IMG/VR virus record: IMGVR_UViG_3300017917_005108
Coordinates: 62,001-126,000 of that record
DNA from: a virus
Reading direction: 5' to 3' (one strand)
DNA length: 64,000 nucleotides
Position 1 is the first letter of the stretch. Each line of letters starts with the position of its first letter. Positions 14,157-64,000 of this stretch are shown piece after piece. The notes beneath the pieces are model-generated. The model ran no database searches. It was given only the letters and a program-made list of their open reading frames with translations, and was not told the origin of the DNA. Both the position numbers and the translations under genes were made by a program.

Positions 14157-15180
14157 TATCTACCATTAGAAGGTCAGCCTTCAAACCAGAGTAGGAATTC
14201 TCTTTTATAAAGTCTGGTGAAATACTATCTAGGTTTTTTGCTATACAGTATTCATTAATATCCTTAAATGTCTTACCCATTTTTTCTGGCCATATAAAAA
14301 CAGTACACCCTTTATCTATAAGTTTTTTTGTCTTCTTTCTACTAGCACTATCATTCCACTGACTGTCGAGTACCCATATTTTTTTATATAGTTTAAAGTC
14401 ATTAATCTGCTCTTCTTGTATCTTAGTAAAGGTATTAGAACTATTTTCTTGAACACCTGCAACTGCAGTACCATTTTTAATAAAAAATGAATCAATTGGA
14501 CCTTCAAATATAAAAATAGAATCTAAATTTGAACTAATATTGTTGATATTATAGAGAGATTTATCACTATTTACTTTTGAGAGATATTTGGGATAAAGAC
14601 GTGTATCGTCATTTAGTATTGTACGTGATTGATAAAATACAATATTATTATTTTTATCATAGAAAGGTATTACTAGTCTGTTTTTATGAACTCTATCAGT
14701 GAGAGAAATCCAAAGGGTTTTAGGTTTGTTTATAGCAGTATCGAGTCTTCTTTTTTTAATTAGTTTGATAGCTTCACTGACAATAGAGTTATCTTTATAA
14801 TAATTTACTTGCTGTTCATCAAAAAGATTAATTGAGTCTTTAGGAAGGGTATCTGTAATAATTTTCTTTTGGGTATCAGGTTTTTCTAGAAGTAGATCTA
14901 ACGGTAATATATCATAGTTTTTAGATTCTTCATATATTTCTTTTGGTGTTAACCCTGCAACAGTTTCAATCCATTTAGATGGGTTACTATGCCAGCCACA
15001 ATTATGACAGCATATATAATTTTTCTCTATAATAAAATAGCATCTGCGCTTTCTACCCCATGACTTGCCTTCTCTACAGATAGGGCAGCCAGCTTCGTAT
15101 ACATTGGTTATCTTTTTAAATTTTGGATAGCCAGCGTATTGATAGAACTTTTGAACTACATAGTCCTTAGGTAGAATCAC
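14137..15180 (-). CDS. 61: DNA primase, gp61-like (DnaG type)
   Basis: 347 aa from GTG at 15180, which is 6 nt after a TATAAT box. The N-terminal zinc-binding domain has C32, C35, C57/C58 and C61 in the contexts GCPIC and CCHNCGW. The Toprim domain carries IFIFEGPIDSFF (catalytic Glu), VLDSQWND with its two Asp, and KDINEY. T4 gp61 is 342 aa with the same layout. It makes RNA primers for the lagging strand and works with the gp41 helicase at 21412-22737. It is set apart from the other replication genes by sugar and hypothetical genes. Confidence 0.88.
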   Translation of the reverse strand: MILPKDYVVQKFYQYAGYPKFKKITNVYEAGCPICREGKSWGRKRRCYFIIEKNYICCHNCGWHSNPSKWIETVAGLTPKEIYEESKNYDILPLDLLLEKPDTQKKIITDTLPKDSINLFDEQQVNYYKDNSIVSEAIKLIKKRRLDTAINKPKTLWISLTDRVHKNRLVIPFYDKNNNIVFYQSRTILNDDTRLYPKYLSKVNSDKSLYNINNISSNLDSIFIFEGPIDSFFIKNGTAVAGVQENSSNTFTKIQEEQINDFKLYKKIWVLDSQWNDSASRKKTKKLIDKGCTVFIWPEKMGKTFKDINEYCIAKNLDSISPDFIKENSYSGLKADLLMVDINRWKR

Positions 15181-15186
15181 ACTTCT

Positions 15187-15214
15187 ATTATACTAGAAAT
15201 TACAACAAAGTAAA
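15187..15214 (-). promoter_or_regulatory. early promoter of primase
   Basis: TTTACT (15214-15209), 16 bp, TATAAT (15192-15187), then AGAAGT and GTG at 15180. The predicted +1 is the G of GTG. Confidence 0.55.
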
Positions 15215-15215
15215 C

Positions 15216-15404
15216 TTATTTCTTTTCTGGAGGAGGCAAATCTCTCACAGAGACAACGCCTTTTTGAATAAAAGCACCACTTGCTGGATCAATCCATTCA
15301 GCTTCTGTAATTTCCTTCTGTCCGCGAATGTAAGTACGTAGTCTAGGTTTTACAGGCTGACCGCTAATCGGTGAATTTATGATTTTTGGCTGAACCATAT
15401 TCAT
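15216..15404 (-). CDS. small late protein
   Basis: 62 aa, basic and Pro-rich (QPKIINSPISGQPVKPRLRTY), with EWIDPASGAFIQKGVVSVRD resembling a short beta-structured cap. Its late box at 15410 shows it is expressed with virion genes although it lies among early genes. No family was recognised. Confidence 0.6.
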   Translation of the reverse strand: MNMVQPKIINSPISGQPVKPRLRTYIRGQKEITEAEWIDPASGAFIQKGVVSVRDLPPPEKK

Positions 15405-15408
15405 ATAA

Positions 15409-15699
15409 CTATTTACTCTCTAATGCAGGAATTCTATACTCAGAAATGTTTTTATTATATTGTAATTTGCAGATATTATAGACTTTTTTAGGCAATCTTT
15501 CAACTATGTCAATTATTTTGCTATCTAGACCAAGCTTAAATTTGTCTGTAGGTACCGTTCTAATTTTCATATCTGGAAGAGATAGAAAGTAATACATATC
15601 TCCTTTTTTTTCAATATGCACAAAAAGTTCACCTAGGTACGTGCCTTTTGTAATAGCGTACACAGTGCCTTCTTTAGGATGTTTTTTTGAAAAAATCAT
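15409..15699 (-). CDS. hypothetical protein
   Basis: 96 aa, beta-rich, with a GTVYAITKGTYLGELFVHIEKK strand pair followed by YYFLSLPDMKIRTVP, and a helical C-terminus. The start overlaps the stop of the upstream reductase gene by 4 bp, so it belongs to that early operon. No family was recognised. Confidence 0.6.
   Translation of the reverse strand: MIFSKKHPKEGTVYAITKGTYLGELFVHIEKKGDMYYFLSLPDMKIRTVPTDKFKLGLDSKIIDIVERLPKKVYNICKLQYNKNISEYRIPALESK
15410..15417 (-). promoter_or_regulatory. late promoter box
   Basis: AGTAAATA on the minus strand, then GTTAT and ATG at 15404. The GTTAT-ATG junction is identical to that at 47674-47681. Confidence 0.5.
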
Positions 15700-16544: not shown

Positions 16545-16550
16545 TAGAAT

Positions 16551-16578
16551 AGTTTAAAGTATAAAAAAACTATATCAA
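16551..16578 (-). promoter_or_regulatory. early promoter
   Basis: TTGATA (16578-16573), 16 bp, TAAACT (16556-16551), then ATTCTA and ATG at 16544. The -10 is weak but all spacings match the family exactly. Confidence 0.55.
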
Positions 16579-17248: not shown

Positions 17249-17980
17249 TTAATTAGCTAATGCTGAAACAATAAACTTAATATCTGTATTAGGTAGGTTT
17301 GTTTCAAACACATATACTCCTATTTTTGTAGAAAATGAACATTTTAAGTCTTTGAATCTCATAGAAGAAATTATTCTAAAAATTTCAAAGTTCAACGGCG
17401 TGGGTATGGCTAGCTGTGGCCCAGTATAATCAGAAGAAATCTGTAGACCATATGAGTCTACATTTGGCCTTGTCTTGTCTGTTAATTCACCAGTAACAAA
17501 ATTATCCTTAAAGCTAAGATATATCTTATTAGTATCTGTGGCTATAGAACTTCCTTTAATTAACTTAATCAAATCTGCATACGTAAGAGTGAATTTACCG
17601 TCAAACTGCAGGTTATTAAGTTTATCCATGCTAAGTTTTGGTACAGTAATAATGCCGTTCTCAAACAAATGGTATTTAAATCTGACATCTGCAGATTTGT
17701 AAGATAGAGAATTATTATCAAGCGTTAACTCAATACTATCTTTATCAATAACTGAAATAATACGTGTAAGCTTTGATAGGTCAGGTATATTAAGCGTTGT
17801 ATCGACTAGCTCGTCTTCTGTGGTATACTGTGCATTTAATATAATTGTATTATCTGAGGTTGAGATAAGTGTTGAGATTTTTTTATCTTTTAGCTTAAAG
17901 ACAGCGCTATTAGTAACCTTGCTTACTGGTATTAGAAAGTTATTTAAAAACCCGTTTCTATCTTTAACTGAAACAATCAT
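17249..17980 (-). CDS. 45: sliding clamp gp45
   Basis: 243 aa (T4 gp45 is 228). Two repeats of the clamp fold can be read: FKLKDKKISTLISTSDNTIILNAQY in the first half and YADLIKLIKGSSIATDTNKIYLSFKDNFVTGELTD in the second, with the C-terminal FEIFRIISSMRFKDLKCSFSTKIGVYVFE typical of T4-like clamps. The trimeric ring tethers gp43 polymerase to DNA and, with gp33 and gp55, activates late promoters in T4. An early promoter overlaps the end of the upstream gene. Confidence 0.85.
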   Translation of the reverse strand: MIVSVKDRNGFLNNFLIPVSKVTNSAVFKLKDKKISTLISTSDNTIILNAQYTTEDELVDTTLNIPDLSKLTRIISVIDKDSIELTLDNNSLSYKSADVRFKYHLFENGIITVPKLSMDKLNNLQFDGKFTLTYADLIKLIKGSSIATDTNKIYLSFKDNFVTGELTDKTRPNVDSYGLQISSDYTGPQLAIPTPLNFEIFRIISSMRFKDLKCSFSTKIGVYVFETNLPNTDIKFIVSALAN

Positions 17981-17987
17981 TTAAACT

Positions 17988-18015
17988 ATTCTAAAATAAA
18001 ATTTTAGAAGATCAA
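17988..18015 (-). promoter_or_regulatory. early promoter of gp45
   Basis: TTGATC (18015-18010), 16 bp, TAGAAT (17993-17988), then AGTTTAA and ATG at 17980. The -35 lies inside the last codons of the upstream gene. Confidence 0.6.
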
Positions 18016-19339: not shown

Positions 19340-19367
19340 ATAATAGTATATAGAGAGATAATATCAA
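19340..19367 (-). promoter_or_regulatory. early promoter of gp32
   Basis: TTGATA (19367-19362), 16 bp, TATTAT (19345-19340), then TTTAAT and ATG at 19333, exactly 6 nt. A long leader with autoregulatory pseudoknot, as in T4 gene 32, is therefore unlikely from this promoter. Confidence 0.6.
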
Positions 19368-20005
19368 GCATTTTCTTTAATTTTTTTTATACCTTGTTCT
19401 ACAAAAACTTTACACTTTTTAGAATTTAGAAACTTTACCTTAAAAGTGTCAAAATTATTAACAAAATCCTCACCAAGCATAAATCTAACTACTTCTAAAT
19501 CTGATTTTTTAAAATTTTTTTCAAATGTATTAAAACCAAATAATGAATAAATGTTAATTTTTCTTTCTTTTAAGTGTATTAAGAAATAATGTAAATTGTT
19601 AGATACTTTATCAGTATATAGTTCTAATGGAATGTTTTCTTTACTGCAAAACTCTCTTATAAAAAGAAGAGAATTTTTTGTAAAAGCTAACTGTTCATCT
19701 GAATCGGGGTCAAGCTTTTCTCTTTGTTTTTGTACAATTGTATATGCTTTAGTAGCTTTTAATGTAGAGAAGTGTTTAAGATCTAAAAACGGCGAATCTT
19801 TATACACAATAAATGATGCACTAAAAAAATCTTCAGGCTTAACTTCTTTATTTCTATTGAAGAAATTAACTATCTTTTTCAAATATACAAATGCTTCGTC
19901 GTTTAAAGTAGAAAAATCTTTTCTAAGCTTATAAGGCTTATTATTATTTGATCTTAAGACTTTTAGATATGTGTTGTATATGTACTTGTCGAAATCTGTT
20001 ACCAT
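19364..20005 (-). CDS. 59: helicase loader, gp59-like
   Basis: 213 aa (T4 gp59 is 217). All-helical, with the order of segments seen in gp59: YNTYLKVLRSNNNKPYKLRKDF, a second domain EDFFSASFIVYKDSPFLDL followed by AYTIVQKQREKL, and a C-terminal part with LHYFLIHLKERKINIYSLFGF, comparable to the ISFETFILLD region. It sits immediately upstream of gp32, the same adjacency as in T4. Gp59 loads gp41 helicase onto gp32-coated forks. Similarity is moderate and by eye. Confidence 0.55.
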   Translation of the reverse strand: MVTDFDKYIYNTYLKVLRSNNNKPYKLRKDFSTLNDEAFVYLKKIVNFFNRNKEVKPEDFFSASFIVYKDSPFLDLKHFSTLKATKAYTIVQKQREKLDPDSDEQLAFTKNSLLFIREFCSKENIPLELYTDKVSNNLHYFLIHLKERKINIYSLFGFNTFEKNFKKSDLEVVRFMLGEDFVNNFDTFKVKFLNSKKCKVFVEQGIKKIKENA

Positions 20006-20208
20006 TTATAATACTTCCACTTGTTCCTAAGAACTTGTGGCTTTATCTTTTTCAGCATGCTTGGTTTGAGGTATGTACGTTTAAGGCGAAGCTCTTCCAT
20101 AATAAAAGATCTGCTTACTTCGCTTGAAAACTTTTTTAACATTCTTTCAAAATATTCTTTATCAGAACATCTTTCTTTCTTTAATTTTACTTCGGCTTTT
20201 ATAATCAT
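19999..20208 (-). CDS. ribosomal protein bS21-like
   Basis: 69 aa, basic. The core EYFERMLKKFSSEVSRSFI then EELRLKRTYLKPSMLKKIK follows the bS21 pattern: sF-x-x-aL-x-x-Fkr-x-v-x-x-x-gil-x-E-x-r-x-r-x-x-Y-x-KPS-x-x-rk. The length matches bacterial bS21 (about 70 aa). bS21 sits on the 30S platform near the anti-Shine-Dalgarno end of 16S rRNA and affects start-site choice. Phage-borne bS21 is known in marine phages, including pelagiphages. Here it lies between two replication genes and overlaps both by 4-7 bp. Its possible link to leaderless mRNA is treated as a finding. Confidence 0.72.
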   Translation of the reverse strand: MIIKAEVKLKKERCSDKEYFERMLKKFSSEVSRSFIMEELRLKRTYLKPSMLKKIKPQVLRNKWKYYKW

Positions 20209-21387: not shown

Positions 21388-21415
21388 ATCTTATATAAAG
21401 GAAGACCTAAATCAA
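21388..21415 (-). promoter_or_regulatory. early promoter of the DHH operon
   Basis: TTGATT (21415-21410), 16 bp, TAAGAT (21393-21388), then 3 nt to ATG at 21384 or 6 nt to GTG at 21381. It overlaps the helicase stop. Confidence 0.5.
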
Positions 21416-24130: not shown

Positions 24131-24159
24131 ATTATATGCGATTAGCATAAATAATTCAA
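24131..24159 (-). promoter_or_regulatory. early promoter overlapping a divergent late box
   Basis: TTGAAT (24159-24154), 17 bp, TATAAT (24136-24131), then ATATGA and ATG at 24124. The spacer contains the plus-strand late box 24146-24153. Confidence 0.55.
24146..24153 (+). promoter_or_regulatory. late promoter box
   Basis: CATAAATA, then 7 nt to the ATG at 24161. It is embedded in the early promoter that serves the opposite strand. Confidence 0.5.
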
Positions 24160-26853: not shown

Positions 26854-26881
26854 AGTATATTATAATTTGATAATATATCAA
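26854..26881 (-). promoter_or_regulatory. early promoter of uvsX
   Basis: TTGATA (26881-26876), 16 bp, TATACT (26859-26854), then AGAACT and ATG at 26847. Confidence 0.6.
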
Positions 26882-27250: not shown

Positions 27251-27278
27251 ATTTTATTATATTTTATCTAGAAATCAA
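27251..27278 (-). promoter_or_regulatory. early promoter
   Basis: TTGATT (27278-27273), 16 bp, TAAAAT (27256-27251), then TGTAGT and ATG at 27244. The -35 lies inside the coding end of the upstream gene. Confidence 0.55.
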
Positions 27279-32751: not shown

Positions 32752-32779
32752 ATTATAACTTTTTATATAAAGATATCAA
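32752..32779 (-). promoter_or_regulatory. early promoter of gp43
   Basis: TTGATA (32779-32774), 16 bp, TATAAT (32757-32752), then TATTT and GTG at 32746. Strongest consensus match on the minus strand. Confidence 0.65.
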
Positions 32780-35825: not shown

Positions 35826-36937
35826 TTATGCTTTTTATATAGCTCTTGAGCATACTTGATTATATACTCTTTATCGTTGATATCTAGAAGGTTAACAAAC
35901 TCTTCAATGGCTTTTGTAATATCAACACCGGATGCATCAAAATTAACATCATCTGCAATTTGTATATCATTATTCACTAGAGAATAATCTACAGATATAG
36001 AAAACGGTTTATATACAGAAAGTTTTTTTAAGAGTGTGTCTACATGATCCGGGGCTACCTTCATATCAATAATAAGTTTTACAATATTATTCTCTATTTC
36101 AGTTTTTATTTGTTTTATATCTTTTTGGTCTTTTACTACTGCACCCTCTTTTGTATTAGCAATTAAATCTGTCAATAGTATTTTTTTATGTTTTGGTGAT
36201 ATACTATTTTCAAAAAATTCTAAATTGAGTGTGTTGAAATCAAGTATATAGTATCCTTTAGTTGAGCCTGTATCACTAAAATCCATCTCAAATGGGTTAC
36301 CTACGTATAGAATTCTTTTACCACTATAGTTTCTATCATCTCTTAAATGAAAATGACCTGTGAGGATAAGTGATCCCTTACTTAATAGCTCTTCAGTTTT
36401 TGTACCATGATCACAGGTCTTATAGCTGTTCATCTTAAAACTTTCAATTTCAAAATGGCCAAAGATAATATCTGATTCTTTTATATCTTCTAGTTTAAAC
36501 CCCCACGGTACAAAAGAGCATTTTTTTCCTAAAATAGTTGTATTAGTAACTTCTGAAATAATTGTAATGTTCTTCCAGCCGTCAAAAAGAGCTAATGAAT
36601 TTATATCAGCTCGGTCTTTATAGTAAGAATCGTGATTACCAACAATAATAACTATATTAAAATTTTTCCATATTTTGAATATTTCATTAACAACATGTAG
36701 TGTGTTTACAGCAATTTCATCTCTATAGTGAAAAACGTCTCCTAGTATAAAGATGTCTTTGATATCTTGCTTCTCTAAAGATGTCTTAAGCCATTTAGCC
36801 CAAGACAAAGCATTTTCATGCCAGAAAATACTATTCTGGTGAACGCCAATATGAAGGTCTGCAACACAGCAGACTTTATTGGTTTTAACTGTAAATTCTT
36901 TAGTTTCCTGCGGTGTTATAGTTGTCGTCATCTCCAT
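35822..36937 (-). CDS. 47: recombination endonuclease subunit gp47 (Mre11/SbcD type)
   Basis: About 371 aa from the ATG at 36937 (MEMTTTITPQE); a further upstream ATG at 36979 would extend the overlap with gp55. Metallophosphoesterase motifs are in order: VADLHIG, FILGDVFHYRDE, IIVGNHDSYY, GHFEIE and LTGHFHLRD, which supply the two-metal site. It is the nuclease of the gp46/gp47 complex. It overlaps gp55 upstream and gp46 downstream. Confidence 0.92.
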   Translation of the reverse strand: MEMTTTITPQETKEFTVKTNKVCCVADLHIGVHQNSIFWHENALSWAKWLKTSLEKQDIKDIFILGDVFHYRDEIAVNTLHVVNEIFKIWKNFNIVIIVGNHDSYYKDRADINSLALFDGWKNITIISEVTNTTILGKKCSFVPWGFKLEDIKESDIIFGHFEIESFKMNSYKTCDHGTKTEELLSKGSLILTGHFHLRDDRNYSGKRILYVGNPFEMDFSDTGSTKGYYILDFNTLNLEFFENSISPKHKKILLTDLIANTKEGAVVKDQKDIKQIKTEIENNIVKLIIDMKVAPDHVDTLLKKLSVYKPFSISVDYSLVNNDIQIADDVNFDASGVDITKAIEEFVNLLDINDKEYIIKYAQELYKKHK

Positions 36938-37505
36938 TATTGGAAGGGTCAACGTACAGATGGTAGTTAGCATCTTCACTCTTACTCGTCATAATATCAG
37001 TATAAACCCTGTCCTTGTAGTTAGTGACAGTTTCATGATGCTTCTTTTCTTTCTTAATACGGTTAATAAACGCATGAAATGCAATTGTAGTAAAATATGA
37101 AAAAGGACTAAAACCTGAATCTAGCTTAAACTTTTTATTTTTTAATGCTGATACCATCTTTACAATTGCATCGCCGATCATTTCTTCTTTATAGGAGTAA
37201 TTAATAAAATTTGGTGCATAAGATAACCCATGAGCTATCTTAGTGATTGAATCTCCAAGCTTAAGTGAAATGTGATCTGTCTTATAAAAGGTTCTAATTT
37301 CATCTTCAAATTCTTTACCGTTTACATAATGTACTTTTTCTTTTCCTCTTGGTTTTTTACCTTCTTTTAAAAGTTTAGTAGGGTCGGCAACTTTAAGAGC
37401 TTCATCAACGGGAATGTCCTCTGTATCGGTATCTTCCAAGGGAAGATCTACCACATCCTTATTCTTGGACTTCTTTAACTTGGTACGAGATGTTTTCTTT
37501 TTCAT
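36900..37505 (-). CDS. 55: late-transcription sigma factor gp55
   Basis: About 201 aa from MKKKTSRTKLKKS at 37505; an in-frame ATG 18 codons upstream lies deeper in uvsW. The conserved core ISLKLGDSITKIAHGLSYAPNF then YKEEMIGDAIVKMVSALKNKKFKLDSGFSPFSYFTTIAFHAFINRIKKEKK is the sigma region-2-like domain of gp55, here with an added Lys-rich N-terminal extension. It directs RNA polymerase to TATAAATA boxes, many of which precede the virion genes here. The C-terminus lacks an obvious hydrophobic clamp-binding end (it ends NYNTAGN). Confidence 0.85.
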   Translation of the reverse strand: MKKKTSRTKLKKSKNKDVVDLPLEDTDTEDIPVDEALKVADPTKLLKEGKKPRGKEKVHYVNGKEFEDEIRTFYKTDHISLKLGDSITKIAHGLSYAPNFINYSYKEEMIGDAIVKMVSALKNKKFKLDSGFSPFSYFTTIAFHAFINRIKKEKKHHETVTNYKDRVYTDIMTSKSEDANYHLYVDPSNNGDDDNYNTAGN

Positions 37506-40602: not shown

Positions 40603-40607
40603 CTTCT

Positions 40608-45874: not shown

Positions 45875-46531
45875 CTAAATTAGTTTCCGATTTTGAGCAA
45901 ATTCAATAAACTTATAAAATTCATTTCTTGAATTATCTTTATCATCTAAAAATGCACCAGACATTCTAGCAGTACGCATTGTAGAATCGTGTCTAATACC
46001 ACGATTCGAACAACAAGTATGAGCAGCTTCAATCATAACAGCAACACCCTTATTCTTTTCACATACCTCATCAATATACTTGTGAATTTGCATAGTAAGA
46101 TTTTCTTGTACTTGAGGGCGTCTAGCAAACCAGTCTACAATACGATTCAACTTACTTAACCCAATAACTTTACCATCTTTAGAAGGAATGTAGGCAACAT
46201 GTGCAAATCCCATAAATGGTGCATGGTGATGTGAGCAGAGAGAAGTGACCTTAATATTAGTCTGTGCTACAATACCGTCATACTTATCAACATTATCAAA
46301 AGCTGTAACTTTAGGTGGTTCACTATAACATCCCCAGGCAAAATCTTCAACAAATGCTTTAGCTACTCTATGAGGTGTATTAGAGCTATTAGGGTCATTT
46401 CTCCAATCGTAACCTAGAGCATCCATATAGGCTTCATAAGCCTTAGCGGCCTTTTCTACTATAAGTTTACGTTCTTCCTCAGTATGAGGGTGATTATGAT
46501 TTGCAAAAGCTAGTTTTTTCTTATTAAACAT
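45875..46531 (-). CDS. folE: GTP cyclohydrolase I FolE
   Basis: 218 aa, full length for the family. Hallmarks: VTSLCSHHHAPFMGFAHVAYIP (zinc Cys and catalytic His region), VIGLSKLNRIVDWFARRPQVQENLT, and VMIEAAHTCCSNRGIRHDSTMRT with the second zinc Cys. It converts GTP to 7,8-dihydroneopterin triphosphate, first step to preQ0 with QueD, QueE and QueC, and also to folate. Early promoter 8 nt upstream overlaps the divergent late box of 46579. Confidence 0.95.
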   Translation of the reverse strand: MFNKKKLAFANHNHPHTEEERKLIVEKAAKAYEAYMDALGYDWRNDPNSSNTPHRVAKAFVEDFAWGCYSEPPKVTAFDNVDKYDGIVAQTNIKVTSLCSHHHAPFMGFAHVAYIPSKDGKVIGLSKLNRIVDWFARRPQVQENLTMQIHKYIDEVCEKNKGVAVMIEAAHTCCSNRGIRHDSTMRTARMSGAFLDDKDNSRNEFYKFIEFAQNRKLI

Positions 46532-46539
46532 ATATTTTT

Positions 46540-46567
46540 ATTATAATATATAAGAGTTCAATTTCAA
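46540..46567 (-). promoter_or_regulatory. early promoter of folE
   Basis: TTGAAA (46567-46562), 16 bp, TATAAT (46545-46540), then 8 nt to ATG at 46531. Its -35 overlaps the plus-strand late box by two bases. Confidence 0.55.
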
Positions 46568-46573
46568 TAAATA
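46566..46573 (+). promoter_or_regulatory. late promoter box
   Basis: AATAAATA, then ATTGT and ATG at 46579, identical in sequence to the box, spacer and ATGG at 13721-13737. Confidence 0.6.
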
Positions 46574-46578
46574 ATTGT

Positions 46579-47013
46579 ATGGCATTTCATTCTTTATTAA
46601 GCGAGTCTTTAAAAAGAACCAGTCTTAGAAGAGTAAGAATAAAGACTGATCCTGCATTAGTAGCTAGAAATGAAGATTTTAGAAAAATTGAAGGATATGA
46701 AGGTTATATTCTCGGTGAATCAAAATTAGGATTAAAAGTTTTAGTTTTAAACCCTGAAATGACAATAAGTGATGTACCAGAAGAAGTATTAGAAATAATA
46801 TCACATCAAGGTAATATTGATATGGTTAATGAATTTAAATGTTATGCAAAAAAATGCTTAAAAGAATTAAAGCAAAAAAGTGATAATGACCCTGTCTTTG
46901 CACAAATTGATTCAGCAAATTCTATAGAAGATATTGAATCTTTTATTAAACAGGGTGGTTTAACGGAAGGCGAGCTTAATAATCTTTATAGAGGATTTTT
47001 AAATGACGAATAA
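46579..47013 (+). CDS. late protein with capsid-targeting-like N-terminus
   Basis: 144 aa. Starts MAFHSLLSESLKR with a Leu-Ser-Glu/Ser candidate site, then a basic stretch (TSLRRVRIK). A small alpha-beta domain follows (YEGYILGESKLGLKVLVLNPEMTI) and an acidic helical C-terminus (IDSANSIEDIESFIKQGGL). It overlaps the next gene by 11 bp. No family was recognised. Confidence 0.55.
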   Translation: MAFHSLLSESLKRTSLRRVRIKTDPALVARNEDFRKIEGYEGYILGESKLGLKVLVLNPEMTISDVPEEVLEIISHQGNIDMVNEFKCYAKKCLKELKQKSDNDPVFAQIDSANSIEDIESFIKQGGLTEGELNNLYRGFLNDE

Positions 47014-47674
47014 GTTTGATAGCTACGTAAATTCTATCCTAGAGGAGGGAATTATGGGAAATATTAAAGCTGCAGCAAAAACAGCAGTAAAACTTCCGTT
47101 TAAAGCCGCAGGTGGATTAACAAAGAAAATAGTTAACCCTGCAGCCTGGTTAAGAGGTGCTGCAAATGTTGTTGGAGGTGCAAATAAACTATTATCTGTA
47201 CCAGGTAAAGCTATAGATACTGCCCATCAAATAGTTCAATCAGGAGATGTGGTATCTCCTGTAGCAAATGCTTTGCAGTCAGGCTTACAGGGTGCAGCAA
47301 ATGTAGCTTCAAAAACAGGCCAAGCTATAGCTGGTTATTACCAGAAGCAAAAAACATCTGGTGGATCTAATGCATTAAAAGGTTTGAATTTAGGACTTAA
47401 GAATGCAGTGGGAACTGCTTCAGGAGCTGCAAAAAATGCTACATCTTATGCAAATAGTGTTCTATATAATGTAGGCGCTATGGCTAGGGCAGCAATTGGG
47501 CAAAATTCACCTTTTACATTCCCTAAAGGTATTAGTGATCCAAAAAGACTTAAAGTGGGAGATACTTTTACTCAAATTAACAAAAAAACCGGTCAAGCTA
47601 CAGCTTATACAGTAGTAGATAAGTCAAGAGATGGTCAGAATATAGTAGCAGCACCGGTAGAATTTTATAAATAG
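47003..47674 (+). CDS. Ala/Gly-rich amphipathic late protein with capsid-targeting-like N-terminus
   Basis: 223 aa. Starts MTNKFDSYVNSILEEGIMG with a Leu-Glu-Glu/Gly site. Residues 20-150 are rich in Ala, Gly, Val and Lys (KAAAKTAVKLPFKAAGGLTKK; GLQGAANVASKTGQAIAGYY), suggesting amphipathic or membrane-active helices. The C-terminal 50 residues look like a small beta domain (PKRLKVGDTFTQINKKTGQ). Possible ejected pore or core protein; inference only. Confidence 0.55.
   Translation: MTNKFDSYVNSILEEGIMGNIKAAAKTAVKLPFKAAGGLTKKIVNPAAWLRGAANVVGGANKLLSVPGKAIDTAHQIVQSGDVVSPVANALQSGLQGAANVASKTGQAIAGYYQKQKTSGGSNALKGLNLGLKNAVGTASGAAKNATSYANSVLYNVGAMARAAIGQNSPFTFPKGISDPKRLKVGDTFTQINKKTGQATAYTVVDKSRDGQNIVAAPVEFYK
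47666..47673 (+). promoter_or_regulatory. late promoter box
   Basis: Perfect TATAAATA, then GTTAT and ATG at 47679. It lies over the end of the upstream gene. Confidence 0.6.
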
Positions 47675-47678
47675 TTAT

Positions 47679-47873
47679 ATGCCTGCTAAATCTGAAAAAC
47701 AACGTAAATTCTTTGGCGCAGTAATGGGCGCTAAAAAAGGTCAAAAAGGTGTAACTGGTGCTGCTAAAAAGACAGCTAAAGAAATGCCTAAAAAAGAGAT
47801 AAAGAAATTTCTTAAGAAAGAGTCTTTCGATGATGCAGTCAATAGAGTCTTAAAAGAAATCTCTGGCTTATAA
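47679..47873 (+). CDS. DUF3008-like small basic protein
   Basis: 64 aa. MPAKSEKQRKFFGAVMGAKKGQ matches the start of DUF3008 proteins (MPAKSxxQxRFMG...). The C-terminus ESFDDAVNRVLKEIS resembles the N-terminal targeting motif of the preceding gene (KFDSYVNSILEE). Highly basic, likely virion associated. The last gene of the late cassette. Confidence 0.6.
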   Translation: MPAKSEKQRKFFGAVMGAKKGQKGVTGAAKKTAKEMPKKEIKKFLKKESFDDAVNRVLKEISGL

Positions 47874-47884
47874 AAAAATATCAG

Positions 47885-47912
47885 TTGATTTTTAAAAATT
47901 TTTGGTTATAAT
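47885..47912 (+). promoter_or_regulatory. early promoter with a real leader
   Basis: TTGATT (47885-47890), 16 bp, TATAAT (47907-47912). The ATG is at 47946, leaving a leader of about 27 nt, an exception among the early promoters. An inverted repeat (47915-47921 / 47935-47941) spans the predicted +1. Confidence 0.55.
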
Positions 47913-47945
47913 ATTATAGGTAATAGAAAAGAAAACCTATAGAAC

Positions 47946-48509
47946 ATGGCATTTCATGGTGATACAAGACTAGCAGAGTTAATGTCAAACTTCATAAGAA
48001 GTAATAATGTAGAGTTAATAATAGAAACAGGTACAAGCGTAGGCTATACAACAGAATTCTTCGCAAGACATAATATACCGGTAATAGGTACTGAAATAGG
48101 AAGAGAAGTATTTGATGAAGCAGTAGAAAGATTAAAACAGTACAATAATGTTAAATTGTTATTTGGCGATTCAACTGATAGCTTAAAAGATATACTACCG
48201 CAATATAGAAACAAGAGAGTATTCTTTTTTCTAGATTCTCATTTTGGTGATGACTTATCATTAAATAGAGAATTAGATTTAATTGATGATTCTGGAATTA
48301 TTCCATACATTACAATACATGATTTTAAGGTACCTAATACAACTTTAGGTTACGATAAATGGGATAAAATGGAGTATGATTTTGAAACATTTAAACCGTA
48401 TTTTGACAAGGTATATAAAAAGTTTAAAGGCTATAGATATACATATAATGATGATTCAGCAGTAGGTGCTAGAAGAGGATGTATTTTCTTAAGACCTCTT
48501 GAAAATTAA
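47946..48509 (+). CDS. class I SAM-dependent methyltransferase-like protein
   Basis: 187 aa. LIIETGTSVGYTTEFFARH is the SAM-binding motif I (ExGTxxGxxT). Motif II-like VIGTEIGREVFDEA, motif III-like KLLFGDSTDSL, and VFFFLDSHFGDDL follow, the layout of MTase_24/cephalosporin-hydroxylase-type small-molecule or sugar methyltransferases. Near the end GARRGCIFLRPL. Target not evident; glycan methylation would fit the sugar genes. It is the first gene of a plus-strand early run with queD. Confidence 0.6.
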   Translation: MAFHGDTRLAELMSNFIRSNNVELIIETGTSVGYTTEFFARHNIPVIGTEIGREVFDEAVERLKQYNNVKLLFGDSTDSLKDILPQYRNKRVFFFLDSHFGDDLSLNRELDLIDDSGIIPYITIHDFKVPNTTLGYDKWDKMEYDFETFKPYFDKVYKKFKGYRYTYNDDSAVGARRGCIFLRPLEN

Positions 48510-48526
48510 AATATGGAGGTTACAAT
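48499..48526 (+). promoter_or_regulatory. early promoter of queD
   Basis: TTGAAA (48499-48504), 16 bp, TACAAT (48521-48526), then ACAACT and ATG at 48533. A GGAGG within the spacer lies 14-18 nt upstream of ATG, before the predicted +1, so it would not be in the mRNA from this promoter. Confidence 0.55.
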
Positions 48527-48532
48527 ACAACT

Positions 48533-49219
48533 ATGAGTTATCAAAGTACAAAAGTTTTAGAATTAGGTAGCTGTGCGTTTAGACAATGGAGAGCTGATCA
48601 TAGTCATTGTCATTTTATTCATGGTTATAGATTAATTGCAAAGTTTTGGTTTGGTTGTTCTGAGCTTGACAATAAAAACTGGGTTGTAGATTTTGGCGGT
48701 CTTAAAGAATTAAAAAGGGAACTAGAAAAACAATTTGATCATACATTTTGTGTTGCTGCAGATGATCCTCTTCTAGAAAAATTTAAAGATCTACATAATG
48801 CTGGTGCTTGTGATTTGCGTATTATGGAGAAAGGTGTTGGTATAGAAAGAACTGCAGAATGGTGCTTTAATAAAGCAAGTGAAGTTGTTTCTAGGCTAAC
48901 AAATAATCGTTGTTGGGTAGAAAAAGTTGAAGTATGGGAGCATGAAAAAAACTCTGCAATTTATACATACACTCAGAAAAGTTCACCTTTTTGGAATGAT
49001 GTAGTAAATGTAAAGACAGAAACAACACCAGAAAGTAAGTTTAATGCAAAGCAATTTGAGTTTAATTTTAATCAACCGGTTGCAACTTCTGTAGCTGCAC
49101 CTGCCCCAGAAGTTACAGAAGCAGTAAATAAAGCTGAACAGAAAATACCTGCTAGAGTTGGCGGCAATGTTACACCAGGTTTTAGTAATCTATTTGGTGG
49201 GACATCTTGGGGTAAATGA
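48533..49219 (+). CDS. queD: 6-carboxytetrahydropterin synthase QueD (PTPS family)
   Basis: 228 aa, about 150 of which are the PTPS fold. AFRQWRADHSHCHFIHGYRL holds H23, catalytic-type C26, H30 and a Tyr at the third zinc position (usual pattern HGH, here HGY). WVVDFGGLKELKRELEKQFDHTFCV and a Glu region ...GIERTAEWCFNKA match. This HGY variant is also what I recall in cyanophage QueD-like proteins. The C-terminal 75 residues are a Pro/Ala-rich extension absent from cellular QueD. It makes CPH4 from dihydroneopterin triphosphate. Confidence 0.82.
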   Translation: MSYQSTKVLELGSCAFRQWRADHSHCHFIHGYRLIAKFWFGCSELDNKNWVVDFGGLKELKRELEKQFDHTFCVAADDPLLEKFKDLHNAGACDLRIMEKGVGIERTAEWCFNKASEVVSRLTNNRCWVEKVEVWEHEKNSAIYTYTQKSSPFWNDVVNVKTETTPESKFNAKQFEFNFNQPVATSVAAPAPEVTEAVNKAEQKIPARVGGNVTPGFSNLFGGTSWGK

Positions 49220-49416
49220 TAGATAAAAACAAGCTATCACCTGAAGTAAGGCAACAGCTTTACGGTGGTGAAATATCTGATTATTATAGAGAAATTAAAC
49301 CTACAAACATTAGTGATAATAAAGCATTAGGTGACATCTATGATAGAATTAAGTCGAAAAATAACTTAAGACTTAGACTTAATTCCAGCGATAACCTTAA
49401 CAATAAACTTCAGTAA
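49216..49416 (+). CDS. hypothetical protein
   Basis: 66 aa, charged. MIDKNKLSPEVRQQLYGG then a Lys/Arg/Asn-rich C-terminus. ATG overlaps the queD stop by 4 bp. The 3' end overlaps the convergent phoH gene by 51 bp, an unusually long overlap here. No family was recognised. Confidence 0.5.
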   Translation: MIDKNKLSPEVRQQLYGGEISDYYREIKPTNISDNKALGDIYDRIKSKNNLRLRLNSSDNLNNKLQ

Positions 49417-50109
49417 TTTACTTCTTGTAATATCATCTTCAGTGAAATGAAATGTATTAATACCGTGTTCAACACTATCTTTAGAATCAAAAGCATTCAT
49501 AATTTTTCCAAAACCTGACCTATCAAAAATATCTGATTGTCTTGTATCACCTATAATAAACAATTTACAATTTTTTCCAAACCTTGTTAAAATTGTTACC
49601 AATTCACTATGTTCTAAATTTTGTGCTTCATCTACAATTACAACACTATTTGTAAATGTACTTCCTCTTAAAAAATTAACAGGTATACATTTTAAATAAT
49701 CACTATCAAACAACATATTGGTAACTTGTTTACCTACTAATTCGTCGCATTTTTCAATTAAAGGTATACTCCATGGTTTAAATTTCTCATCTACTTCTCC
49801 AGGCAAGCTACCCAGTTTCTTATGTGCAGATTCTACAATACTTCTAATATAAACAACTTCATCAATTTTTTTATCTTTTAGCATAGATAACGCGACATAT
49901 GTAGCTAGATAGGTTTTAGATGTTCCTGCTGGACCGTCACAAAACATTATTAAAGAAGAGTCATCCATTGCCTTTTCAACAAAGGTTTTATGATGATCGT
50001 TAAGATGAAATTTCTGATCTATTTTAAAATTTAAAAGAATATCAGATCTTATTATCTTATTTTCATCATGCCGGGCAGCTTTCTTAAGCTGTCTCTCCTT
50101 CTTTGACAT
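49366..50109 (-). CDS. phoH: PhoH-like ATPase
   Basis: 247 aa. Walker A FCDGPAGTSKTYLA (59-66 core), VEYIRSIVES...KLGSLPGEVDEKFKPW is the family-specific stretch, Walker B VVIVDEAQNL, and FIIGDTRQSDIF. PhoH-like proteins are common in marine phages; function uncertain, related to the ATPase half of PhoH helicase-nucleases. A late-type box lies 7 nt upstream of ATG, suggesting late expression. Confidence 0.9.
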   Translation of the reverse strand: MSKKERQLKKAARHDENKIIRSDILLNFKIDQKFHLNDHHKTFVEKAMDDSSLIMFCDGPAGTSKTYLATYVALSMLKDKKIDEVVYIRSIVESAHKKLGSLPGEVDEKFKPWSIPLIEKCDELVGKQVTNMLFDSDYLKCIPVNFLRGSTFTNSVVIVDEAQNLEHSELVTILTRFGKNCKLFIIGDTRQSDIFDRSGFGKIMNAFDSKDSVEHGINTFHFTEDDITRSKLLKFIVKVIAGIKSKS

Positions 50110-50116
50110 CTGTAAT

Positions 50117-50124
50117 TATTTATT
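50117..50124 (-). promoter_or_regulatory. late promoter box of phoH
   Basis: AATAAATA on the minus strand, 7 nt before ATG at 50109, divergent from the early promoter of 50161. Confidence 0.5.
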
Positions 50125-50125
50125 C

Positions 50126-50153
50126 TGGAAAAGCTTAAATTACAATATATAAT
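50126..50153 (+). promoter_or_regulatory. possible early promoter, weak -35
   Basis: TGGAAA (50126-50131), 16 bp, TATAAT (50148-50153), then 7 nt to ATG at 50161. Confidence 0.4.
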
Positions 50154-50160
50154 AACGAAA

Positions 50161-50364
50161 ATGAGTAAAAAAATTACAGTAGAACTAACTAATGAAGAGT
50201 TTAAAACACTACACTCTGTTTTAGGTGATTATAAGAGAATAACAAGAGACCAATATTATAGATTTGTAAAAACTAACTATGTTTATTCAGAATGTCCTCT
50301 TAATAAGATTCGTTTTGATGAAGCACAAAGTCTTTTAAAAAAACTAGTTGAAGATCAACAATAA
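50161..50364 (+). CDS. hypothetical protein
   Basis: 67 aa, helical: KKITVELTNEEFKTLHSVLGDYKRI, then NKIRFDEAQSLLKKLVEDQQ. The plan resembles small ribbon-helix or regulatory proteins, but no family was recognised. The -35 of queE lies in its last codons. Confidence 0.5.
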   Translation: MSKKITVELTNEEFKTLHSVLGDYKRITRDQYYRFVKTNYVYSECPLNKIRFDEAQSLLKKLVEDQQ

Positions 50365-50375
50365 TATAATATCAT
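50348..50375 (+). promoter_or_regulatory. early promoter of queE
   Basis: TTGAAG (50348-50353), 16 bp, TATCAT (50370-50375), then 8 nt to ATG at 50384. It decides that start over the ATG at 50348. Confidence 0.5.
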
Positions 50376-50383
50376 CTTTAAAA

Positions 50384-51118
50384 ATGGAAAATACATTATT
50401 CTTAAGTGACGATAAAATCTTTCATACAATAGAAGGGGAGGGTGAGTATGTTGGAAAGCCTTCAGTTTTTATGCGTCTATCTATGTGTAATTTAACTTGT
50501 AAAGGGTTTATTAGTGCTGATGCTCCTTACGGCTGTGATAGTTTTATTAGCTGGTCAATTAAAAACAAAATGACGTTTGATGAGATTAATACTTTACTTG
50601 ATGAGTCGGGGTATGTAAGATGGCTAAATAGAGGCGATATTTTTAAAATTACCGGTGGTGAACCTCTTATACAGCAAAAAAATCTTCTACAATTCATTGA
50701 TTCATTTATATTTAAATTTAAATTTATTCCAAGAATTGATTTTGAAACTAATGCTACTATTATGCCAGATTATCAGTGGTCTGATTGGTGTGCAACGTTT
50801 ACAACATCTCCAAAGCTATCTAATAACGGTGATCCTGAAGAGAAAAGATACAAACCAGAAGTTTTAGCTTGGCATGCCAAAAATGGCTCAGGATTTAAAT
50901 TTGTTGTTTCATCAGAAAAAGATTTAGATGAAATATTTGAAAAATATATTAATAGGTTTAATATTAGAAAAAATAAAGTATGGCTAATGCCCTGCTGTGG
51001 CAGTAGAGAAGAACACAATAAAGTTGCTCCTGTTGTAGCAGAAATATGTAAGAATACAGGTATTAATTTTAGTCCAAGGCTACAACTGGTAATTTGGGAC
51101 AAAGCGCTTAAAGTATAA
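50384..51118 (+). CDS. queE: 7-carboxy-7-deazaguanine synthase QueE (radical SAM)
   Basis: 244 aa from MENTLFLSDDK. IFHTIEGEGEYVGKPSVFMRLSMCNLTCKG begins as in QueE; cluster cysteines are C35, C39 and C51, with an insertion between the second and third (normally CxxxCxxC). ITGGEPL is the SAM-binding GGEP motif; FETNAT and FTTSPKLSNNGD match. It rearranges CPH4 to CDG for QueC. The inserted cluster spacing occurs in some other QueE branches. Confidence 0.87.
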   Translation: MENTLFLSDDKIFHTIEGEGEYVGKPSVFMRLSMCNLTCKGFISADAPYGCDSFISWSIKNKMTFDEINTLLDESGYVRWLNRGDIFKITGGEPLIQQKNLLQFIDSFIFKFKFIPRIDFETNATIMPDYQWSDWCATFTTSPKLSNNGDPEEKRYKPEVLAWHAKNGSGFKFVVSSEKDLDEIFEKYINRFNIRKNKVWLMPCCGSREEHNKVAPVVAEICKNTGINFSPRLQLVIWDKALKV

Positions 51119-59221: not shown

Positions 59222-60211
59222 ATGAAAGCAACAATTGTTGGATGCGGACTGTCTGGAATTACCGCAGCAATAATTTTAAAAAATAAAGGCTATAAAGTAG
59301 AAATTTTTGATACAAGAAATCATATAGGCGGTAATTGTTATGACAGTAATGTATGTGGCACTATAGTACACAATTACGGTCCTCATATTTTTCATACTGA
59401 CGATGAAGAGGTGTTTGCATTTCTCTCAAACTATACAGAGTTTTTTCCATTTGAGTATAAACCATTAGGTGATACAGAGCTTGGTCTTATTTCATTACCG
59501 TATAGTAAAAAAACTATTAATGAATTAGGCAGAGAACTTACACAGGATGAAATTGTAAAATATATTTTTAAAGACTATTCTGAGAAGCAGTGGGGAGTAC
59601 CTTTTGAAAAAATACCAAAATCAATTACAAATAGAATACCCAAAACTAAAGATGATTTAGACCCTACATGGTACGGTAATCAAAAATATCAATGTATGCC
59701 TAAATTTGGATATACTAAGATGATGGAAAATATGTTAACTGATATCAAAGTAAATTTAGGAGTAGAAGAAAACACATGGAAAAAATATAATTCAGATTTA
59801 GTAATTTTTACCGGTAAAATAGATCAATATTTTGATTATATTCACGGCTATCTCCCCTATAGATCACTAGAATTTAACCATCACATTACAGATAAAAAAT
59901 TAGAAAGAGTAGTAATAAATCAAAATAATATGCGAAACAAATATACAAGAGTTTATGATCATAGCTATTTTACATACAATCATAAAGGAATAACAGTTGT
60001 AACCAAAGAGTATCCTGTGCAACATAATAATACAAATATACCTTTCTATCCAATTCCTTTTGGAGAAGGTGACAGCATATATAATAATCTATATAAACCC
60101 CTTGGTGAAAAAGAAAAAAATGTAATATTTTTAGGAAGATTGGCAACTTACAAATATTTGGATATGTGGATGGCTATAAAACAAGTCTTTTTAAGACTAA
60201 AAAATATTTGA
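59222..60211 (+). CDS. glf: UDP-galactopyranose mutase
   Basis: 329 aa, somewhat shorter than typical (about 370). FAD Rossmann motif VGCGLSGITAA at 6-16, NHIGGNCYD, the family-defining HNYGPHIFHTDDEEV, and EKQWGVPFEKIP. It converts UDP-Galp to UDP-Galf, so galactofuranose may be part of the glycan made by the cluster. Confidence 0.92.
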   Translation: MKATIVGCGLSGITAAIILKNKGYKVEIFDTRNHIGGNCYDSNVCGTIVHNYGPHIFHTDDEEVFAFLSNYTEFFPFEYKPLGDTELGLISLPYSKKTINELGRELTQDEIVKYIFKDYSEKQWGVPFEKIPKSITNRIPKTKDDLDPTWYGNQKYQCMPKFGYTKMMENMLTDIKVNLGVEENTWKKYNSDLVIFTGKIDQYFDYIHGYLPYRSLEFNHHITDKKLERVVINQNNMRNKYTRVYDHSYFTYNHKGITVVTKEYPVQHNNTNIPFYPIPFGEGDSIYNNLYKPLGEKEKNVIFLGRLATYKYLDMWMAIKQVFLRLKNI

Positions 60212-60235
60212 TATTTTTATTTTTCATTATATAAT
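60208..60235 (+). promoter_or_regulatory. early promoter
   Basis: TTGATA (60208-60213, containing the glf stop), 16 bp, TATAAT (60230-60235), then ACACAC and ATG at 60242. Perfect match to the early consensus on the plus strand. Confidence 0.65.
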
Positions 60236-61194: not shown

Positions 61195-61209
61195 AAGCTA
61201 ATTATTATT

Positions 61210-61653: not shown

Positions 61654-61656
61654 TAA

Positions 61657-62034
61657 ATGAAGGTGTCTTTGTCTACTTTAAAGACAATTCTTCTTACTAA
61701 CGTAGCAGAAATAAAATTTTTTCGTAAACGCCCTAAACCTGGATTTCCCCCTACAAGACGAATGCTATGTACTAATAGTTTTCCTCTTCTTAATAGCCCT
61801 GAAGGTAGAATAGCACTAAACTTTAGACCAGCAAAATCTTTTCCAACCTTTAATACAGTAGAAAGAAATGTATTAATTGTGTGGGATATTTTTATGCAAA
61901 ATTTTAGGTGTGTCAATATGGCTGCTTGTAATTTAGTATCTGTAATACCTGCCAACAAAGAATTTTGGAAATACTTTAATCAAAAATTAGCTAGACTTTC
62001 AACAGCACAAAAAATAAATTTTATGAACAAATGA
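61657..62034 (+). CDS. conserved T4-like hypothetical protein (SH3-like, DUF2693-type)
   Basis: 125 aa. TNVAEIKFFRKRP, PPTRRMLCTNSFPLLNSPEG, VLIVWDIFMQNFRCVNMAACNLVSVIPA, and FWKYFNQKLARLSTAQKINFMNK. The RRMxCTN...WDxxxQxxRxxN pattern is that of small SH3-barrel proteins of T4-like phages (DUF2693-like, from memory). Function unknown. Confidence 0.55.
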   Translation: MKVSLSTLKTILLTNVAEIKFFRKRPKPGFPPTRRMLCTNSFPLLNSPEGRIALNFRPAKSFPTFNTVERNVLIVWDIFMQNFRCVNMAACNLVSVIPANKEFWKYFNQKLARLSTAQKINFMNK

Positions 62035-62378
62035 TATCACCAGAAATAATAGAAAATGAAGTTTCAAAGAACCTTCAAAAAAAGGTAGACTTTGTTATTG
62101 AAAAAAAAGTCATTAAATCTGGCAAAATACTTTTATTTAGTATAAAAGATTTTTACTGTAACTTTCTTTTATATGTAGAGGAAAAAAAGAAAAAAGTTTT
62201 GTTTGAAATTCCTTATCCATATAGCTACCAGCAGACAGATTCTGGATTAATATTTGATTATACTATTGATACTTTTTTTAAGAATAACCCTCATATGCCT
62301 GAATGCATGAGTATGTTTAGAGGTACAAAGACTTCCAAACTTTTTAATAAAAAGCTTATATTAAAAATTTACATTTAA
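62031..62378 (+). CDS. hypothetical protein
   Basis: 115 aa. Mixed alpha-beta: VDFVIEKKVIKSGKILLFSIKDFYCNFLLYVEEKKKKVLFEIPYPYS. No family was recognised. It overlaps the preceding gene by 4 bp and is followed by an early promoter for the helicase. Confidence 0.5.
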   Translation: MISPEIIENEVSKNLQKKVDFVIEKKVIKSGKILLFSIKDFYCNFLLYVEEKKKKVLFEIPYPYSYQQTDSGLIFDYTIDTFFKNNPHMPECMSMFRGTKTSKLFNKKLILKIYI

Positions 62379-62401
62379 AAGGTACAAATAGGTTATATAA
62401 T
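62374..62401 (+). promoter_or_regulatory. early promoter before a GTG start
   Basis: TTTAAA (62374-62379), 16 bp, TATAAT (62396-62401), then ATATTT and GTG at 62408. Confidence 0.5.
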
Positions 62402-62407
62402 ATATTT

Positions 62408-64000
62408 GTGTTTAGCCGTTATTTAAATCATTTTCCTAAAGACTATAGTCCCTCAGAACAGCAAACAAAACTAATCAAAAGTGTTGAAAGAGCTTTTAAT
62501 AGAGGAAAGAAATTTGTTATAGCTTGTGCACCAACAGGATCAGGAAAAAGCTTTCTATCAAAGACATTATCTGGACTAGGTCAAAAGCCATCAACAGAAT
62601 TTAAAACGCTTATTGAAACATATAAAGCATACAAGCAGGATTATACCGGAAATTATATAAATGAAGTCGACTGTTTAAAGCAACCTCCATTCGGGACATT
62701 TGCTCTTACTATAACCAAATCTTTACAAGACCAGTATCTATCACTCTTTCCAGATACAGACTTATTAAAAGGTAAAACAAATTATGTATGTAATGTAGAT
62801 CAAAATTTTGATGTAGAAACAGCTCCTTGTCTGTTTATAAGCTCTTTAAAAGATGAATGCTGCAGTCAAAAAAAATGCTTATACTATAATGCAAGAAATA
62901 CTGCACTCTTATCTCAATTTTCAGTTCTAAACTATAAGATGTTTCTTTCTCTCCCAAAGCATTTAAAAAGAAAAAATTTTATTATATGTGACGAAGCATC
63001 AGAATTAGAAGAAGAACTCGTTAAACAATTCTCAGCTGAAGTTAACTATGACAAGTTAAAAAATTATGGTATTGTTTGTAGACAGCTGACTACAGAAAGT
63101 TATGAAAAAATTAGAAACTGGATGTATGATCTTCTTCTCAGCATAGGCGAAAAAACAAACACACTTATAGTAAAAGCTAGTAAAAAACAAAATATGCTAT
63201 CACAACCAGATAGAATAAAATTATTATACCTTAAAAACCTATCTAATTCTCTAACCATGATAGATACATTGTGGAAAGAATGTGAATTTATAATTGATAA
63301 AGATTTAAAACGTGCAGTCTTTACTCCTTTAAAGGCAGATAAAATATCAAAACATATATTTGATTATGCTGATAATGTCTTACTAATGTCAGCAACTATT
63401 ATTGATCATAAAAACTTTGCAAAATCTCTTGGTATAACAGATTATGAATATGTTGAAGTTGAGAGTGAATTTAACCCAGAAAGATCTCCAATTTATGTTT
63501 CTTCAAAGCATAAACTAAATTATAAAAATTACAAAGTAATTTTACCAGAGATTGCTACACAAATAAAAAGCTTAACAGAAATGCATAAGAACGACAAAGG
63601 CATTATACATACACATAGTCAAGAGATTACAAATATACTTAAAGATAAGCTAAAGGGCAATAGAAGATTTTTATTTAGAGATGAAACATCTAATAATGAA
63701 GATATTTTAAAGGAGCATTATAACTCAGATTTTCCTACCATATTAGTTTCACCGTCATTATCATATGGTGTCGATCTTAAAGACGACTTAGCAAGATTTC
63801 AAATTATTGTAAAGCTCCCCTATCCACCTCTTTCTGTAAAGCGTGTTAAAAAGCTGTTTGATATTGATAAAGACTGGTATGAGAATAAAATGCTTAATAC
63901 ATTAGTACAAGCATGTGGGAGAGCAACAAGAAGTAAAAATGATTTTTCTACTACGTATATACTTGATGGAAATGTAGTAAACGTTTTAAAAAGAACAAAA
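62408..64000 (+). CDS. Fe-S cluster SF2 helicase (DinG/XPD-like), cut by window end
   Basis: At least 531 aa from GTG at 62408; no stop in the window. Motif I CAPTGSGKSF (residues 40-49), four Cys in the contexts YVCNVD, APCLF, DECCSQKKC that fit the Fe-S insertion of XPD/DinG helicases, motif II FIICDEASEL (DEAS instead of DEAH), LLMSATI as motif III, IHTHSQE, a VDLKDDLA region and QACGRATRS as motif VI. It unwinds DNA 5' to 3', possibly at R-loops or flaps. The spacing of GTG to TATAAT (6 nt) supports the start. Confidence 0.9.
   Translation, partial: MFSRYLNHFPKDYSPSEQQTKLIKSVERAFNRGKKFVIACAPTGSGKSFLSKTLSGLGQKPSTEFKTLIETYKAYKQDYTGNYINEVDCLKQPPFGTFALTITKSLQDQYLSLFPDTDLLKGKTNYVCNVDQNFDVETAPCLFISSLKDECCSQKKCLYYNARNTALLSQFSVLNYKMFLSLPKHLKRKNFIICDEASELEEELVKQFSAEVNYDKLKNYGIVCRQLTTESYEKIRNWMYDLLLSIGEKTNTLIVKASKKQNMLSQPDRIKLLYLKNLSNSLTMIDTLWKECEFIIDKDLKRAVFTPLKADKISKHIFDYADNVLLMSATIIDHKNFAKSLGITDYEYVEVESEFNPERSPIYVSSKHKLNYKNYKVILPEIATQIKSLTEMHKNDKGIIHTHSQEITNILKDKLKGNRRFLFRDETSNNEDILKEHYNSDFPTILVSPSLSYGVDLKDDLARFQIIVKLPYPPLSVKRVKKLFDIDKDWYENKMLNTLVQACGRATRSKNDFSTTYILDGNVVNVLKRTK

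Follow-up and report, generated by a model that had tools for sequence, protein, structure and literature searches.

Promoters set against start codons predict leaderless early and late messenger RNAs in a T4-like phage clade

How does a large lytic phage begin protein synthesis when its promoters lie almost against its start codons? This question is raised by the aquatic phage DNA studied here, a window of 64,000 nucleotides (nt) that corresponds to bases 62001-126000 of the 162,497-bp IMG/VR record IMGVR_UViG_3300017917_005108, whose encoded proteins are distantly T4-like (~31% identity between the DNA polymerase and its best match among isolates, and at most 40% between the terminase and its counterpart in a Sinorhizobium phage). 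A preliminary description of this window had proposed that the early promoters place the transcription start (+1) exactly on the start codon, so that early mRNAs would be leaderless genome-wide. We analysed the complete record as well as the window, and the proposal is supported by computational tests but was too narrow, as the late genes share the same architecture. Judging from sequence, we infer that the phage and its clade probably make leaderless mRNAs in both temporal classes, with a probability that we put at roughly 0.85.

For the full record, a codon-usage gene finder blind to promoters and to Shine-Dalgarno (SD) sequences gave 175 genes. The start of each gene was chosen mechanically as the first ATG or GTG of its frame, and because only these two codons were permitted, the absence of TTG starts is not evidence. 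The early promoters are of the sigma70 type, with a TTGA-like -35 element, a 16-17 bp spacer and a TAnnnT -10 element. Across the whole phage the pattern TTGA-N18-TAnnnT occurs 107 times, and 43 of these matches are followed by a start within 150 nt. The gap between the -10 box and the start codon is 6 nt in 13 of the 43, a mode one base wide, and 5-8 nt in 21, a distribution that is far from flat (binomial p ~2e-14). Altered spacers of N16, N17 or N20 gave no such peak in the whole phage, and N19 (17 bp) yields a few cases only. The same result is obtained when gene calls are left aside, ATG or GTG standing at offset 6 after the early motif 16 times against a mean of 2.1 (maximum 5) in 30 second-order Markov genomes. 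In textbook geometry the sigma70 -10 element occupies positions -12 to -7, so a gap of 6 puts +1 on the start codon.

Every early promoter named in the preliminary description is present at its gene and with the gap given there. On the minus strand, a gap of 6 precedes gp32 (19340-19367; -35 TTGATA, 16 bp, -10 TATTAT; ATG at 19333), uvsX (26854-26881; ATG at 26847), a 119-amino-acid (aa) gene earlier read as Sm-like (27251-27278; ATG at 27244), the SDR gene (16551-16578; ATG at 16544), the amidotransferase gene (24131-24159, with a 17-bp spacer; ATG at 24124) and uvsY (39318-39345; GTG at 39311). On the same strand, the promoter lies 5 nt before the GTG at 32746 for the DNA polymerase gp43 (32752-32779), 7 nt before the ATG at 17980 for the putative clamp gene gp45 (17988-18015), 8 nt before the ATG at 46531 for folE (46540-46567), and 3 nt before the ATG, or 6 nt before an adjacent GTG, for a gene previously named DHH (21388-21415). 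On the plus strand are the promoters of queD (48499-48526; 6 nt before the ATG at 48533), of a gene previously named DUF366 (60208-60235; 6 nt before the ATG at 60242) and of queE (50348-50375; 8 nt), where the start is the ATG at 50384 and not the opening of the TTG-led open reading frame at 50348. Likewise, the promoter and gap of gene 40033 are as described, its -10 element being CATAAT and so outside the TAnnnT pattern. The weaker -35 already ascribed to primase and to the Fe-S helicase is confirmed, the primase promoter being TTTACT-N16-TATAAT with gap 6. A further promoter, absent from the earlier list, precedes a 142-aa gene (13316-13343, minus strand; 6 nt before the ATG at 13309).

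The late class gives an even sharper peak. Within 45 nt of a start, TAAATA has 73 matches in the whole phage, of which 34 stand at exactly gap 5 and 51 at gaps 5-7 (binomial p ~1e-36 against a flat distribution), and the gene-call-free test finds ATG or GTG 40 times at offset 5, where 12.7 are expected (maximum 18 in Markov genomes). These boxes have the form of T4 late promoters, resembling TATAAATA with T or A at -13. The T4 late box spans -13 to -6 relative to +1 (PMC1524935), and therefore a gap of 5 makes +1 the A of the ATG. Of the single arguments for transcription starting on the start codon, the strongest is that each class shows the gap demanded by the geometry of its own polymerase. 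The window also encodes a homologue of the late sigma factor gp55 (36900-37541, minus strand; PHROG_234 profile, E=1.6e-27), which escaped single-sequence comparison, was found with the profile, and was missing from the initial gene list since it overlaps its neighbours. A putative gp45 sliding clamp homologue of weak similarity is encoded at 17249-17980 on the minus strand (E=2e-4 in one comparison only, by phmmer to the clamp of phage C48C1, with a weak single-sequence hhalign match).

Among the late promoters on the minus strand are those of a 302-aa late gene (ATTAAATA, 4708-4715; 5 nt before the GTG at 4702), of a 182-aa gene (AATAAATA, 5282-5289; gap 6) and of the tail sheath gene gp18 (AATAAATA, 7583-7590; gap 6). 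Two late promoters stand back to back at 13707-13728, one on each strand, serving a GTG at 13701 (minus) and an ATG at 13734 (plus) that are 32 bp apart, with gap 5 on each side, and another (AATAAATA, 46566-46573, plus strand) lies 5 nt before the ATG at 46579, opposite the early promoter of folE. At several places (13701/13734, 24124/24161, 46531/46579, 52802/52836) the 32-50 bp between divergent starts hold early and late promoters back to back, sometimes with shared bases, and early and late firing could interfere there. In tandem late genes (for example at 47666-47679, 40595-40608 and 15404-15417) the TAA or TAG stop of the upstream gene falls inside or beside the TAAATA box.

In the mechanism that we propose, a host sigma70-type RNA polymerase would initiate early transcription where 6 nt separate the -10 hexamer from the start codon, and a gp55-directed polymerase would initiate late transcription where 5 nt separate the TAAATA box from that codon. 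Both geometries would make +1 the A of AUG or the G of GUG, so that the first gene of an operon would be translated from a 5'-terminal AUG or GUG by 70S-type leaderless initiation. The majority of the remaining genes overlap or directly adjoin their upstream neighbour, often with ATGA, and ribosomes would reach them through translational coupling; SD pairing would go unused by the phage. GUG-led leaderless mRNA is poorly translated in E. coli and well translated in some bacteria (PMC9031893), and given the GUG starts of this phage its host should tolerate GUG.

The gene layout is consistent with such a mechanism. SD-like tetramers at -18 to -4 are found before 9% of the genes against 8% at a control position, which is background, whereas T4 processed identically gives 60-76% SD and late boxes mostly 24-28 nt from the start. 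A strict early or late promoter lies 2-9 nt (nearly always 5-8 nt) before the start of 78 of the 175 genes. For 63 of the remaining 97, the start lies between -40 and +12 relative to the end of a gene on the same strand, and 28 of these 63 show the ATGA overlap. GTG is the start codon of 18% of promoter-headed genes and of 6% of coupled ones (p=6e-6). A T at -1, which fits a Y(-1)R(+1) initiator, is found in 58% and 43%, respectively (p=1.5e-4). Both p-values pool five related genomes and are uncorrected for relatedness.

Could the boxes be AU-rich translation signals, that is, unstructured start regions of SD-less genes whose transcripts begin farther upstream? The genome is 69% AT, and bacteria that do not use SD have AU-rich start regions. 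However, the early box is accompanied by a -35-like TTGA at a fixed spacing of 16-17 bp, each peak has the width of a single base and its position differs between the classes (6 against 5), the coupled genes lack boxes at this position, and TAAATA is scarcer genome-wide than a Markov model predicts (320 against 517). Furthermore, divergent starts are a median of 48 bp apart (at most 55 bp in 17 of the 21 pairs), often 26-52 bp, which leaves little room for leaders, let alone for separate promoters as well. We consider this explanation very improbable.

A second concern is that the annotated starts, picked as the first ATG or GTG of the frame, lie too far upstream, and that ordinary leaders with SD sequences are hidden in what appears to be coding sequence. 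We compared orthologous starts between the phage and its relatives. From codon 2 onward, in early and late genes alike, third positions diverge on average 2-4 times more than second positions, whose divergence is low, and therefore translation begins at or very near the annotated codon. Alignments to PHROG profiles also reach close to the first residue (uvsX 1->16, gp18 2->20, uvsY 2->4), the same method returns gaps of 24-28 in T4, and in the Pelagibacter phage HTVC008M all 12 starts at gap 5 (12/12) are those annotated by the depositors. Such hidden leaders are hardly credible to us.

Upstream of the start, divergence is ~0.6 per site for early genes and dips mainly at -12 to -7, in a patch near -34, and at -1; for late genes it dips at -13 to -6, at -4 and at -1. 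No conserved SD position was found upstream of the orthologues. Among orthologues that carry a promoter, 91 of 135 early ones have gap 6, and 106 of 148 late ones have gap 5 or 6. In uvsX the promoter is retained in 22 of 30 distinct upstream regions of relatives, every one with gap 6, and in gp32 in 20 of 22 (gap 6 in 12), while gp43 orthologues start with GTG in 27 cases and ATG in 8, mostly at gap 6. The late promoter of the 302-aa gene is kept in 24 of 28 relatives, at gap 5 (17) or 6 (7), and that of the 182-aa gene in all of them (32/32), at gap 5 (25) or 6 (6). These data also bear on a milder alternative, in which +1 lies a few nucleotides upstream and many genes carry leaders of 1-5 nt. 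A sizeable minority of gaps of 7-9 in both classes, also in relatives, would fit it; on the other hand, the modes are exactly 6 and 5, the base at -1 is constrained, and the start base is a purine (only ATG and GTG being permitted as starts) that is kept when ATG and GTG are swapped between orthologues. Leaders of this kind on many genes seem to us unlikely.

Several points nevertheless weigh against fully leaderless expression. The +1 positions in this phage are predictions from sequence, and +1 may wander by one or two bases, so that some transcripts may carry leaders of 1-3 nt. Single boxes are weak evidence in so AT-rich a genome and the case depends on the ensemble; the similarity of the gp45 homologue is weak; and 34 of the 175 genes fall strictly into neither the promoter-headed nor the coupled class. 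Moreover, one gene, 47946-48509 (plus strand), is a clear case with a real leader, as the preliminary description had recognised, its TATAAT ending 33 nt before the ATG. This leader (47907-47945) contains a hairpin-capable repeat, ATAGGT...ACCTAT, that ends 5 nt before the ATG, and the gene adjoins queD. It could be regulatory, and a search of it against Rfam gave no match.

How far does this architecture extend? In eight whole or long IMG/VR relatives (G001, G002, G009, G010, G012, G013, G014 and G015) SD is at background (4-14%) and both promoter classes lie near the start, with a late peak that is sharp in most of them and broader in G013 and G015. T4, P-SSM2, C48C1, AG-345-L05, phiM9 and Cr30 (40-90 kb of each) showed no gap-5 late peak. 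Between these extremes stand G016 (14 genes at gap 5, SD 54%), HTVC008M (TAAATA exactly 5 nt before ATG on 12 genes, among them those at 6280, 7562, 11972, 19456, 31132 and 49760; SD 55%), Mosig (6 genes at gap 5 and none at 4, 6 or 7) and the OM43 phage Melnitz (2 genes at gap 5). In a survey of pelagimyophages the prediction of late promoters was unsatisfactory (PMC7029224), perhaps in part because such boxes sit so close to the start codons.

Among the window's genes, one that could be connected with this mode of expression is a 69-aa homologue of ribosomal protein bS21 (19999-20208, minus strand; PF01165 E=4e-8, 30.8 bits against a curated cut-off of 27). Its start overlaps the stop of the gene upstream, as in translational coupling, and it sits in the early replication module rather than among structural genes. 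The gene is present in all searched long relatives of the close clade (G001-G007) and in G010, G014, G016, HTVC008M, Mosig and Melnitz, and was not found in the six control phages that lack the gap-5 peak. The W-K-(F/Y)-Y tail is conserved in the bS21 of the clade, where the ungapped position that would correspond to Flavobacterium johnsoniae Tyr54 holds Asn62, and Trp 64 is invariant. The bS21 of Flavobacterium contributes to concealing the anti-SD sequence (PMC9976891). The bS21 of HTVC008M enters E. coli ribosomes, and with a GFP template in vitro the activity of purified ribosomes containing it was ~5% of normal (PMC6375957), a result that fits, but does not demonstrate, that bS21 favours leaderless mRNA. 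One possible scenario would be that SD initiation was abandoned and that phage bS21, exchanged into host ribosomes, weakens SD-anti-SD recognition and favours phage mRNAs with a 5'-terminal AUG or GUG over those of the host. We regard this scenario as doubtful, though if it is true, T4-like phages with bS21 would have in common a late class at exactly gap 5, which this clade would show in full and SAR11 and OM43 phages in part. Shared ancestry and habitat confound the association, which we offer as a hypothesis. As a strict requirement, bS21 is not supported: G009, G012, G013 and G015 are poor in SD yet have no detectable bS21, some of them being fragments and maybe incomplete.

Alternatively, a host that barely uses SD could impose the architecture, and bS21 would be unrelated to it, which we hold to have nearly an even chance of being correct. 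The promoters, however, are TTGA/TATAAT-like rather than TAnnTTTG, the promoter form of Bacteroidota, and position counts show no TG after the -10 box. Some bacterial groups, such as Bacteroidia, do without SD (PMC9976891), and G013 and G015 (128 and 112 kb) combine absence of SD with no bS21 match. Conversely, HTVC008M and Mosig infect SAR11, and HTVC008M has SD on about half of its genes together with an exact gap-5 late subset, so the host alone is insufficient there. A host search by scanning GTDB contigs for uvsX gave a single distant match only, and no homologue of initiation factor 3 was found in the phage.

Leaderless transcripts in both temporal classes, which remain our preferred reading, have partial precedents. 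T4 late transcription (gp55, gp33, gp45; TATAAATA at -13 to -6) is alike in its TAAATA box with A or T at -13, its gp55 (and, on weak similarity, its clamp) and the box upstream of structural genes, and unlike in that T4 gaps are mostly 24-28 rather than 5, the phage studied here having neither SD nor space for a leader. The TA-led leaderless genes of bacteria, most frequent in Actinobacteria and Deinococcus-Thermus, also have a TA-like -10 box ~10-12 bp before the start and no SD, but are a minority in each bacterial genome (Zheng et al., 2011; PMC3160421), unlike the situation here, where nearly all promoter-headed genes of a lytic phage, under two sigma classes, would be of this kind. Lambda cI and other single leaderless phage mRNAs likewise have +1 at the AUG, as single promoters and without a genome-wide rule. 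A paper on AR9 already describes leaderless transcripts as frequent in phages (PMC5312081), so individual cases have precedent. The T4-like isolates HTVC008M, Mosig and Melnitz share gap-5 TAAATA boxes (12, 6 and 2 genes) and bS21, but show no clear early leaderless class, and HTVC008M retains SD on over half of its genes. The bS21-encoding phages of freshwater Bacteroidetes (Chen et al., 2022; PMC9723584) are aquatic and carry their own bS21 as well, which, in contrast to the early replication module and W-K-(F/Y)-Y tail described above, sits with terminase and capsid genes. For a genome-wide rule across two sigma classes without SD we could not find a description in the open-licence literature, nor did we find there a link of phage bS21 to leaderless phage mRNA.

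Leaderless mRNAs of bacteria are usually regarded as oddities or remnants. If our reading is true, a clade of lytic T4-like phages would hold a natural, nearly complete leaderless expression system outside archaea, an uncommon mode of protein synthesis for a large phage. It would also offer a definite hypothesis about the presence of bS21 in aquatic phages, and improve start-codon calling in phages of this kind. The prediction is testable in cultured SAR11 phages.

Two other features of the record deserve mention. No transfer RNA (tRNA) was found in the window. The ends of the record (G000:158500-162497 and 1-700; L008, L009, L001) differ from the remainder, with GC of ~0.4 and open reading frames preceded by SD-like AAGGAG, and are possibly a separate module or an assembly join. 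This region contains a transfer-messenger RNA (L001:282-688, minus strand) and a tRNA with a CAT anticodon (L008:19242-19316). An extra initiator tRNA favours leaderless translation (PMC9031893), but this one was rejected as an initiator, as its 1:72 position is paired and the three initiator G:C pairs are absent; it resembles tRNA-Ile2. Finally, folE, queD and queE (46531-50384 in the window), together with a DpdA-type transglycosylase-like protein (G000:137938-138750), suggest 7-deazaguanine modification of the phage DNA.

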